36,012 bases of DNA, taken from a virus. A model generated the notes under the pieces. That model worked only from the letters and a program-made list of their open reading frames with translations, did not search any database and was not told the origin of the DNA. A program made the position numbers and the translations under genes. The stretch spans positions 1-36,012 of the IMG/VR virus record IMGVR_UViG_3300029787_000158; one strand, written 5' to 3'. Positions 1,226 to 35,418 of the stretch are shown here, piece after piece. Within the stretch, counting starts at the first letter, position 1; every line of letters starts with the position of its first letter.

Positions 1226-1684
1226 ATGAATAAAGAATTAGAAGATTTAGTAATTTTAGAAGTAACCCATGAACTTGGTGTTACGAAGGAATTATTATTA
1301 TCAAATAGACGAGATATAATGTGTGTCATTGCAAGGCAATTCCTCGTGTATATGTTAAATTATTATTTTGGATACGATACAATAAAAATAGCTGATGCTA
1401 TTGGCAAAGATCGTTCTACTATTCACTTTAACATCTATGCTTTTGAAAAAAGTATGAGGAAAAACAACAATTATCTTAATGAATTTATCCGTGTTGACAA
1501 AGGTGTGAGTAGAATAGTTCGTAATTATATGGATTACTTAGGATATGATAGACGACCTTTTCGAAGCACGCACAACATCCTCGCTGGAACAGATTTTTCA
1601 CGAGTGGATAGAATACTTAATCGACATAGGTCAGATCAAGAGAGAGAACATCAATTACAAGATGTTGAATCAAGCAATAGTTGA
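1226..1684 (+). CDS. DnaA domain IV-like DNA-binding protein
   Basis: A 152-residue protein whose first 80 residues resemble the C-terminal DNA-binding domain of DnaA. RRDIMCVIARQFLVYML (about 28-44) matches the helix after the basic loop, IADAIG follows, and KDRSTIHFN (61-69) matches the DHTTVLHA signature that contacts the DnaA box. No AAA+ ATPase domain is present. It may bind an origin, recruit or displace host DnaA, or act as a repressor. I chose the ATG at 1226 because GGAGGG precedes it; an upstream in-frame GTG at 1154 lies inside the leader hairpin. The C-terminal 45 residues are Arg/Asp/His-rich and overlap another open frame. DnaA-box-like sites occur at 34884-35183. Confidence 0.7.
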   Translation: MNKELEDLVILEVTHELGVTKELLLSNRRDIMCVIARQFLVYMLNYYFGYDTIKIADAIGKDRSTIHFNIYAFEKSMRKNNNYLNEFIRVDKGVSRIVRNYMDYLGYDRRPFRSTHNILAGTDFSRVDRILNRHRSDQEREHQLQDVESSNS

Positions 1685-1730
1685 ATTGGAGAAAGAACAA
1701 TATGTTAAAAGTGGACGAAAATTACATTAA
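1545..1730 (+). CDS. Overlapping small ORF, possibly expressed
   Basis: A 61-residue frame starting at an ATG inside the DnaA-like gene (plus-one frame) and ending inside the lysozyme start. Its translation looks protein-like (EQIFHEWIEYLIDIGQIK, AIVELEKEQYV) and amphipathic. Against it, its third codon positions are more GC-rich than the competing frame in this AT-rich genome, and I see no Shine-Dalgarno. It could be an overprinted gene, the product of a frameshift in the DnaA-like gene, or chance. Confidence 0.25.
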   Translation: MIDDLFEARTTSSLEQIFHEWIEYLIDIGQIKRENINYKMLNQAIVELEKEQYVKSGRKLH

Positions 1731-26397: not shown

Positions 26398-27140
26398 TAT
26401 GTGTAAAATGTCCTTTTGTTTGTTGATTCATCCATGCCAGTACCAGCAAAATACTTTGTTGTATTTTTAGATGTTTTAGATTTCTTTTTATTTGTATTAT
26501 TACTTACTACATCTACTTCACCCATAGCTGAATTTGCTACACCTTCATTTGCTAATGAAGAAACATCAAATGTTGTATTTAAATTTGCTTTAAAAGATTT
26601 TTGATAATCGCTATATTGTTTTGTTAATTCTTTACCAGCCATCATTCGTAATGGACTTCCCATAATTGGCCCTACCATTAAAGACATACCTCCTAAAGCT
26701 ACTGCTTTAATTTTTTTTTGTCTTTCAAACATTTGTTCTGAAATTGGAACACTTCCAATTATAGATGCCGAATTACCAGTACCCATAGCTGTTCCTTCTT
26801 GAGCTTGTCCTTTTGTATACGAACCATATTTCATAGCCCATCCTTTTGATGTAAGCATATATCCACCACCACCAGTTTTTTTTGCTTCACCAATAGAAAA
26901 TAAATATTCATTTGTTGCTTTAGATACTTGACCTCCATACATATAATTTCTTTCGCCATCTTTCATTGTGTAAGTATTTCCTTTTGCATCTGTTTGAAAT
27001 TTTACTTTTTTCTTAACTGTATTTGTTGCTTTTTTTGTTTGTTTTTTTGGAGCTATAACAACATTGTTATTATTGTTATTATTACTACTTCCTCCTCCTG
27101 AGTTACTTGAGCCTGAACTTGTTTTATTTTTAGAACCCAT
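26397..27140 (-). CDS. Hypothetical protein with poly-Asn/Ser N-terminus
   Basis: A 247-residue protein with a low-complexity N-terminus (poly-Ser, poly-Asn) and a basic KKQTKKATNTVKKKVKF patch, then GERNYMYGGQVSKATNEY and GGYMLTSKGWAMKYGSY, and a helical region (QKKIKAVALGGMSLMVG). Many marine podoviruses carry such a gene between terminase and portal; function unknown. It overlaps both neighbours by the TAATG. Confidence 0.55.
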   Translation of the reverse strand: MGSKNKTSSGSSNSGGGSSNNNNNNNVVIAPKKQTKKATNTVKKKVKFQTDAKGNTYTMKDGERNYMYGGQVSKATNEYLFSIGEAKKTGGGGYMLTSKGWAMKYGSYTKGQAQEGTAMGTGNSASIIGSVPISEQMFERQKKIKAVALGGMSLMVGPIMGSPLRMMAGKELTKQYSDYQKSFKANLNTTFDVSSLANEGVANSAMGEVDVVSNNTNKKKSKTSKNTTKYFAGTGMDESTNKRTFYT

Positions 27141-27352
27141 TAATACATATTGCCTTCGTCATCATAAAATCCCCTACCACCAGCACGAGAAAATAATGCA
27201 CGAGAACCAACCAATCCACCAGCTATTCTTTTTTTTCTTTCTGCTCTTTTTTCTTCTTTTTCAATTCGTTCTTTTTGTTCTTCTGCTAATTGACGTTTAA
27301 TCATTTTATCAGTTTCCGTTTCTTGATATTTAGGTCGTTTTAAAACACCCAT
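27140..27352 (-). CDS. Small basic coiled-coil protein
   Basis: A 70-residue protein: an Arg/Lys/Glu-rich helix (TDKMIKRQLAEEQKERIEK, to about 40) followed by GGRGFYDDEGNMY. The layout and the stop-overlap with the next gene (TAATG) suggest a small structural partner of the portal region. No family is recognised. Confidence 0.5.
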   Translation of the reverse strand: MGVLKRPKYQETETDKMIKRQLAEEQKERIEKEEKRAERKKRIAGGLVGSRALFSRAGGRGFYDDEGNMY

Positions 27353-27369
27353 TTTAGTATCCCTTTGGT

Positions 27370-27822
27370 TTAGGCTTTGGTTTTGGTTTTGGTTTTTTGG
27401 CCATTGTTAATTCTTGCGTCCACAAAAAACTCAAAGTCTATCTTTCGCAACGCACAAAATAGCTGATAAGGAGTAAATAACCAAAAATTACGCAATCCAA
27501 TCATTCTTTGTATGTAGCTGACGCAACTATGTTCTTTAACCCACCACTCACCTTTAAATTGATGATTTGTCATTTCTTTGCCTTTGAGAATAGTTCCATT
27601 AAGTCTTTTAATAAAACTTAACATTTTAATTGCTTCTTCTTCGTCAATTAATTCTACCAATAACTGACCATACAGTCCTTCGACAACTACCCAGCAGTCA
27701 AATTGTTTATTAAAGTACATAGCACCACAATGGATAAATCCTTTTTTACGCCATTTGGTGTACCAAGGTGGATTATATGGCGAATAAAAAAATACTAACC
27801 ATTCATTCCGAATATGTTCCAA
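27370..27822 (-). CDS. Putative permuted papain-like (NlpC/P60-type) protein
   Basis: A 150-residue protein with HCGAMYF at 31-37 and SCVSYIQRMIGL at 99-110, then FTPYQLFCALR. The N-terminal His with a later Cys-led helix and TPxxL motif looks like the permuted papain fold of NlpC/P60 relatives. An amidase or peptidase role is possible; there is no certain catalytic triad. I chose a TTG at 27822 because AAGGA precedes it; it overlaps TerL by 28 bases. The C-terminus is a KTKTKTK tail. Confidence 0.4.
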   Translation of the reverse strand: MEHIRNEWLVFFYSPYNPPWYTKWRKKGFIHCGAMYFNKQFDCWVVVEGLYGQLLVELIDEEEAIKMLSFIKRLNGTILKGKEMTNHQFKGEWWVKEHSCVSYIQRMIGLRNFWLFTPYQLFCALRKIDFEFFVDARINNGQKTKTKTKA

Positions 27823-33600: not shown

Positions 33601-33713
33601 GGAGTTATCGTGGCACAACACGGCTAAGTTTGTGAACTAGAAGTTAGGTAGGGAGGCCAGTCAGCTCAGCTCACGCCTCCCCCCCATGGTTTCCTGTTAT
33701 GCAGACAGGAAAA
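33601..33713 (+). ncRNA. GC-rich multi-hairpin RNA candidate
   Basis: This stretch is clearly richer in G+C than its AT-rich surroundings. By eye it gives a weak stem CGTG/CACG (about 33609-33622), a small stem around 33624-33640 with a bulge, GGGAGGC/GCCTCCC (about 33652-33682, seven perfect pairs) and TTTCCTG/CAGGAAA (about 33690-33712, seven pairs). The last stem covers the AGGA before the next ATG. No T-run follows, so it is not a plain terminator. It could be a small RNA, a leader controlling the gene at 33718, or a mixed terminator. No known RNA class is recognised. Confidence 0.45.
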
Positions 33714-33717
33714 GCGT

Positions 33718-33861
33718 ATGACTGAACAACAATTTATAGGTTGTAAAGTACATATTCGGAAAGATATGGACAAATGTCTGAAGTGTTCGAATGTGGTTTC
33801 AAGTACTGGTCAAATTAGAAACTTGACTATACGGGAAAGATTGAGGGTGATCACAAGCTAA
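33718..33861 (+). CDS. 47-residue ORF with CxxC
   Basis: A short frame: MTEQQFIGCKVHIRKDMDKC, then LKCSNVVSSTGQIRN. The CLKC pair plus an earlier Cys (GCKV) could bind metal. An AGGA seven bases before the ATG lies in the 3' arm of a hairpin, suggesting that initiation might be controlled by RNA structure. No family is recognised; could be chance, but size and placement fit the gap. Confidence 0.35.
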   Translation: MTEQQFIGCKVHIRKDMDKCLKCSNVVSSTGQIRNLTIRERLRVITS

Positions 33862-33929
33862 CCCCTCTACGCACTTAATAAATTTAAGAAACTACCCTAA
33901 AGGATACAATACATTTATTTTAAATATTA

Positions 33930-33973
33930 ACACTAATTAGTGTGGGGTGTATTCAGCTAAATGCACCAACTTA
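33930..33973 (+). promoter_or_regulatory. Structured element B before the ParB-like gene
   Basis: ACACTAATTAGTGT (33930-33943) is a perfect 14-base palindrome, followed by GGGGTG; a second stem pairs GGTGTATT (about 33946-33953) with AATGCACC (about 33960-33967). TAGTGTGGGGTG (33938-33949) repeats element A at 1044-1055. It lies about 30 bases before the Shine-Dalgarno of the ParB-like gene. Possible operator or RNA leader. Confidence 0.4.
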
Positions 33974-34771: not shown

Positions 34772-34854
34772 TTCCAATACAAGGCCCGTGGGTAAATATT
34801 GGAAAAAACAGCTATCAGCTACTCATGTATAGAGATGCATCTCCTGATAGCTGT
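34772..34854 (+). terminator. Two successive hairpins after the ParB-like gene
   Basis: TTCCAATA (34772-34779) pairs with TATTGGAA (34797-34804), eight pairs, with CCC/GGG nested inside. Then ACAGCTATCAG (34808-34818) pairs with CTGATAGCTGT (34844-34854), eleven perfect pairs, and the 12-base palindrome GAGATGCATCTC (34832-34843) lies inside the loop. A short T-run (AACTTTT) follows. The first stem begins right after the stop codon. Likely a transcription stop, but the unusual nesting also fits a site used in replication. Confidence 0.55.
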
Positions 34855-34859
34855 AACTT

Positions 34860-35190
34860 TTACACGCAATTCTTATCCTTTTCTGTGTATAACGATTGTG
34901 TATAACCAAAACCTAGATATAGTAAGATTAATGTTAATAAAATTTGTTCAAAAAAGGTTATCTGTATATAACCCTGTGCAAAAGCTTACTTTTTTTGTAA
35001 AAATGGCTGTTTTCCGCCACAATAGTTACAGTTATCGTAAGTTAAATGCAAGGAATAAAAATAATTATCTTAAAATATTATCGCAGAAAACTGGGAAATA
35101 TTTAAGAGAAATTTTTACAGATAATTTTTTCAAGCAAATTTTACACATTAGTTACGATAACTACATAGGTAAATTGTGGAAAAAGCACTC
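34860..35190. other. Candidate replication origin with DnaA-box-like sites
   Basis: The gap from 34772 to 35175 has no supported gene. Two exact DnaA boxes (TGTGTATAA, the complement of TTATACACA) lie at 34884-34892 and 34897-34905. One-mismatch sites are at 34963-34971, 34975-34983, 35139-35147 and 35175-35183. An inverted repeat AGTTATCGTAA (35030-35040) and TTACGATAACT (35152-35162) frames a very AT-rich 110-base stretch, and GGTTAT/ATAACC is at about 34957-34973. AT-rich DNA gives some of these by chance. Fits a host-DnaA-dependent or phage DnaA-like-protein-dependent origin. Confidence 0.5.
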
Positions 35191-35418
35191 GGTACACACT
35201 TTCACGACCAGTTGATAACTCAGTTTGTAGCCCAAAGGCACAGACTTGGGTTAAGTCAAATGGACTTAGATGAAAAGATCGGTGTTGCTCGTGGTTTAGT
35301 ATCCAAATGGGAAGTTGGGATACGAAAACCATCAGGTTTTCTCTTTTGCGTATGGGCTGATGCATTGGGATGTAATTTGTGGCTACTAGAAGAAAAAGAA
35401 AACAGAAAATCAAATTAG
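35176..35418 (+). CDS. XRE/Cro-like HTH regulator
   Basis: An 80-residue protein with a compact XRE helix-turn-helix: RHRLGLSQMDLDEKIGVARG (about 21-40) followed by LVSKWEVGIRKPS, then LFCVWADALGCNLWLLEEK. It starts with GTG at 35176, the first start that gives the whole domain; AGGT is the only ribosome-site-like sequence. It may regulate the early genes or the nearby origin. A DnaA-box-like site overlaps its start. Confidence 0.75.
   Translation: MEKALGTHFHDQLITQFVAQRHRLGLSQMDLDEKIGVARGLVSKWEVGIRKPSGFLFCVWADALGCNLWLLEEKENRKSN

Follow-up and report, generated by a model that had tools for sequence, protein, structure and literature searches.

How marine podoviruses that have no DNA polymerase gene start their replication is an open question (PMC9860041), and the IMG/VR record IMGVR_UViG_3300029787_000158 raises it at a defined locus. 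The whole record (36,012 bases, class 'linear') was analysed and is called the window below. It belongs to a marine, pelagiphage-like podovirus whose terminase is closest, among isolates, to that of Pelagibacter phage EXVC031P Hodr (66.7% identity), so SAR11 is the likely host. The early genes run rightward from ~30.8 kb to the record end and then from base 1 to 2142, in the order DUF932, ParB-like, HTH_3 and DUF3310, then ERF-like, SSB, DnaA domain-IV and lysozyme. In the relative L006, ~1.3 kb including a YqaJ-type exonuclease gene lies between the matches to the end (36012) and the start (1) of the record, so the record is not closed and lacks ~1.3 kb. No helicase, primase or DNA polymerase gene was recognised among the genes scanned, and no Rep domain was found in the early genes scanned. 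The question is whether the gap between the ParB-like and HTH genes, which an earlier note had read as a candidate origin, is where replication of this phage begins. The features of the gap are as follows.

34808 to 34854: stem-loop to the left of the array, with covariation in L006 and L007
34884 to 34892, minus strand: DnaA box 1, TTATACACA; TGTGNATA is retained in relatives
34897 to 34905, minus strand: DnaA box 2, TTATACACA; box and flanks (ATTGTGTATAACC) are identical in all 14 aligned sequences having that part, window included
34913 to 34972: least stable 60-bp stretch of the gap by nearest-neighbour stability, adjoining the exact boxes
34975 to 34983, minus strand: DnaA box TTTTGCACA; TTTTCCACA or TTATTCACA in relatives
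35139 to 35147, plus strand: DnaA box TTTTACACA, in the opposite orientation; TTTTTCACA in relatives
35175 to 35183, minus strand: DnaA box TTTTCCACA
35176 to 35418, plus strand: HTH_3 protein gene (Pfam HTH_3, 8.9e-9), downstream of the array; the preceding box covers its GTG start codon

The exact word TTATNCACA occurs only twice in the 36,012-base record, both times in the gap and on the minus strand with starts 13 bases apart. The pair and its spacing are as the earlier note had stated. The near matches also lie where the note placed them, but they number five one-mismatch sites rather than four (34932, 34963, 34975 and 35175 on the minus strand, 35139 on the plus strand). Three of these, at 34975, 35139 and 35175, fit the relaxed consensus TTWTNCACA, which is found five times in the gap and once in the remaining record. 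Dinucleotide shuffles gave a mean of 0.086 for the gap and none of 5000 reached five, and shuffling the whole record 400 times never gave a 330-base cluster of more than three sites. Summed over five lineages the consensus occurs 23 times, and no other of 4000 same-composition permuted words reached 19. Over the whole record, one-mismatch sites of TTATNCACA number 47, below the 68 of shuffles; the unusual feature is the clustering of the boxes. Besides the DnaA boxes, no iteron-type direct-repeat array was found in the module alignment. Box 2 is followed by one to three TAG triplets, which are possible DnaA-trio repeats of uncertain polarity and significance.

To collect relatives, viral contigs were searched with two proteins, the HTH and the DnaA-like one, and with a conserved DNA word. 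The module that carries the array is present in 14 further contigs, with the array conserved in 13 of them and reduced in the 14th; in L112 the left part of the array is lost and an exact TTATCCACA is retained. The distance from box 1 to box 2 stays at 13 bases, and the remaining boxes keep their place and orientation, varying mostly at positions 3 and 5, which are the degenerate positions of the consensus. The DnaA-box array is therefore real, conserved and far above chance. Array-less relatives carry the same HTH gene (~72-85% identical) with nothing array-like upstream.

Next to the exact boxes, the stretch 34913-34972 ranks 22 of 35,953 60-bp windows for instability, about the sixth distinct place in a record that contains other AT-rich stretches, and it is a candidate unwinding stretch. 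The stem-loop at 34808-34854 probably terminates either the ParB-like gene or leftward transcripts and is not part of the array. Further elements lie outside the gap. Upstream of the ParB-like gene, 33691-33877 (plus strand) resembles the manA RNA motif (RF01745) in divergent form, scoring 36.0 bits (E 7.7e-8) where the gathering score is 55.2, and none of 14 related loci gave an Rfam match at gathering score. The intergenic regions before the DnaA-like and ParB-like genes, 990-1225 and 33920-33970 (both plus strand), share a TAGTGTGGGGTG motif. The stretches containing them fold more stably than shuffled sequence (z -2.2 and -3.7, respectively), and they are possible structured RNAs.

The right half of the gap has a different character.

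35003 to 35215, plus strand: unannotated small ORF of 70 codons, with its ATG at 35003, overlapping the HTH gene start
35030 to 35040: left arm of an inverted repeat, AGTTATCGTAA, inside the small ORF
35152 to 35162: right arm of the same repeat, TTACGATAACT, likewise within the small ORF

The gap had been described as non-coding, which holds for its left half only, since the frame at 35003-35215 is open in all relatives. This frame, with the motif SYSYR...HI(S/T)Y(D/E)NY, is uninterrupted across the matching part in 15 of 15 sequences, while the other two forward frames have two to eight stops each in the five lineages counted. The multiplied probability of a stop-free frame over these lineages is 9e-11, a value overstated by their relatedness; the open frame does speak for coding. 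Its dN/dS values (0.35 to 2.4) are noisy around 1 and are no proof of coding, suggesting either that the protein is fast-evolving or that a DNA function keeps its synonymous sites from changing, and the 16 invariant bases AGTTACAGTTATCGTA favour some constraint on the DNA. The putative protein gave family matches at chance level only and a poor structure model (pLDDT 62). A longer, 138-aa frame from 34799 was discarded; its part upstream of 35003 is not retained in more distant relatives.

The 11-base arms of the inverted repeat enclose AT-rich DNA, as the earlier note had observed, but they lie inside the conserved small frame and do not delimit a separate non-coding element. Nine pairs of the repeat are invariant in 12 sequences and none covary, so that a protein-binding dyad or a coding coincidence would fit better than a hairpin. 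A conserved hairpin at the repeat was accordingly rejected, even though single sequences fold well. It is also very improbable that the gap as a whole acts as a structured non-coding RNA or a long DNA hairpin around the repeat. Its plus strand does fold much better than shuffles (z -6.8), as do the cores of most relatives (z about -2 to -6). However, the minus strand also folds well, the consensus fold has nine pairs with no covariation, and the frame over the repeat part is open in every relative. Nor did Rfam yield a family at gathering score in the gap; the one match, to idnO, was weak, with 23 bits where the cut-off is 100.

A second locus co-occurs with the array.

1226 to 1684, plus strand: gene for a protein consisting of DnaA domain IV only, its start placed by GGAGG at 1217-1221 and by relatives

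The DnaA-like protein that the earlier note had recognised in this genome matches the Bac_DnaA_C profile (32.1-32.6 bits against a curated cut-off of 31.5), as do 15 of 15 family members. It has 152 residues and comprises the C-terminal domain only. Its predicted structure (pLDDT 79) superposes on DnaA domain IV bound to its box at 2.1 A (3pvp) and 1.5 A (1j1v), and Foldseek matched it to domain IV entries with E-values of 0.002-0.02 and probability 1.00. By profile and predicted fold, the protein is thus assigned to DnaA domain IV. The AAA+ ATPase domain is absent, so the protein is not a full DnaA initiator and by itself should be unable to open DNA or load a helicase. Its box-reading motif is KDRST instead of the RDHTT of SAR11 DnaA, which makes binding of the same boxes plausible only. 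A second frame, 1545-1730 (plus strand), overlaps the end of this gene and is kept even where relatives lack the DnaA domain; it is probably a real small gene.

Thirteen module-bearing sequences could be scored at both places (the window, L005, L006, L096-L098, L100, L105, L106 and L111-L114; the L111 contig holds only the right end of the module), and in all 13 the DnaA domain-IV gene sits between the SSB and lysozyme genes. The DnaA domain was found in none of the seven module-less relatives (L093, L094, L099, L102 and L108-L110), and L094 and L099 have a different small gene at its place. Simple counting gives p ~1e-5, for contigs that are related to one another. Mapped onto the SSB, ERF-like and HTH protein trees, the module requires three to four state changes; on the ERF tree, well-supported branches force four. 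Since the co-occurrence (13/13 versus 0/7) extends over these three to four changes, we read the array and the domain-IV gene as functionally linked.

A linkage of this kind can be envisaged for more than one role. Host DnaA is also a transcription factor, and the array could be a control region of the early operon, with replication starting elsewhere; the phage domain-IV protein or host DnaA, perhaps with the HTH protein, would then bind the boxes and the inverted repeat and regulate the small ORF, the HTH gene and further genes downstream. The array does lie directly upstream of early genes, with one box over the HTH start codon, and module-less relatives have only a short promoter-like stretch in its place, to which some add a DnaA box at the start codon. 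HTVC010P, moreover, has a domain-IV protein and no array. On the other hand, the array contains no good sigma-70 promoter, its five to six boxes, in two orientations over 300 bp and with AT-rich DNA beside them, look more like an origin than like single operators, and the gene set needs some entry site for the host replisome. We consider early-gene control rather doubtful. As a separate observation, an exact TTATCCACA or TTATGCACA ends at the HTH start codon in the module-less L093-L095, L099 and L103.

The array might also be a sink for DnaA, comparable to the datA locus of E. coli. As phage genomes multiply, they would titrate host DnaA and, helped by the domain-IV protein, bring host initiation to a halt; the phage itself would start its replication by another route. 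A tight box cluster and a domain able to compete for boxes are consistent with such a role. Five boxes per phage genome are nevertheless few for titration early in infection, and neither the kept order and pitch nor the adjoining AT-rich DNA would be necessary, which makes a sink distinctly unlikely. The origin, control and sink roles can overlap.

Taken together, these comparisons lead us to favour, with some reserve, the reading of 34884-35183 as a DnaA-type phage replication origin. In support of it are the excess and clustering of the boxes, their conserved places, orientation and 13-base pitch, the co-occurrence with a DnaA domain-IV gene identified by profile and structure, the AT-rich stretch next to the exact boxes and the lack of any recognised helicase, primase or polymerase gene among those scanned. 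SAR11 DnaA also retains the RDHTT box-reading motif. Several observations point the other way. The GC skew turns at 30-31 kb, outside the gap; this turn coincides with the change of gene direction, by which skew is confounded, so it is neutral on the origin. Cultured pelagiphages have DnaA domain-IV proteins and no array, so the protein can act without it, and relatives without the array must replicate too. Searches of 6-8 SAR11 genomes turned up no DnaA-box pairs, and SAR11 dnaA has no box cluster nearby, so that box use by the host is deduced from the DnaA motif only. The reading motif of the phage protein is KDRST, not RDHTT. Finally, coding sequence extends over two of the five boxes, and the record is ~1.3 kb short. 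The candidate origin of the earlier note thus retains its box excess and its conservation in relatives, but loses the framed AT-rich element and is not joined by the skew turn.

From general knowledge of DnaA and the anatomy of the array, a course of initiation can be inferred. Host DnaA would bind the boxes, the AT-rich stretch 34913-34972 would open, and host helicase and polymerase III would be loaded, after which the phage YqaJ-type exonuclease, ERF-like recombinase and SSB may support recombination-dependent copying. The phage domain-IV protein would bind the same kind of box and tune or redirect initiation, by strengthening the choice of the phage origin, by later clearing DnaA or by competing at the host origin. 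Tentatively, and with less confidence than in the origin itself, we suggest a split initiator, in which the domain-IV protein labels the boxes of the phage and draws in or diverts the host machinery, array and gene forming a linked two-part replication cassette that passes between phages. If so, a phage lacking polymerase, helicase and Rep protein would capture host initiation through the DNA-reading part of DnaA alone, exploiting the host initiator with a protein that is only its DNA-binding domain. The question can thereby be put to one defined site of 300 bases and one defined small protein, which occur together in a single group of marine phages.

No report of a DnaA-box array linked to a phage DnaA gene was found in the literature searched, which omits most subscription journals. 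In alphaproteobacterial phages, DnaA sites were reported to lack an uneven distribution (PMC9437464), a result compatible with an array limited to the present phage group. DnaA genes have been reported in HTVC010P-type pelagiphages (PMC6811365). BLAST of the domain-IV protein against an isolate phage collection gave no match, and a profile search of isolate phages detected such a protein in four pelagiphages. HTVC010P (L315) encodes it at 26998-27531 (minus strand) in a gene annotated as hypothetical, with the DHTT motif kept, and isolated pelagiphages L321-L323 have domain-IV proteins in genomes without a box array. These SAR11 podophages thus resemble the window in the domain-IV protein, but HTVC010P, HTVC024P, HTVC034P and Lederberg have no DnaA-box array and differ in sequence outside the domain. 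The MPP-C cyanopodoviruses likewise have no DNA polymerase gene, and use of host polymerase III has been proposed for them (PMC9860041); unlike the window, where none was recognised, they encode a helicase-primase. With bacterial oriC and its basal unwinding system of DnaA boxes and unwinding core (PMC8287927), the array shares tandem TTWTNCACA boxes beside an AT-rich stretch; here, however, it lies on a phage with no ATPase-domain dnaA gene nearby, and the TAG-containing run after box 2 is not established as DnaA-trios. The P1, F, pSC101 and RK2 origins, which use host DnaA besides a Rep protein (reviewed in PMC4980987), are alike in that an extrachromosomal replicon carries a small number of DnaA boxes next to AT-rich DNA. 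Where those origins have iterons and a Rep-type initiator, neither of which was recognised here, the window instead carries a protein made of DnaA domain IV only.
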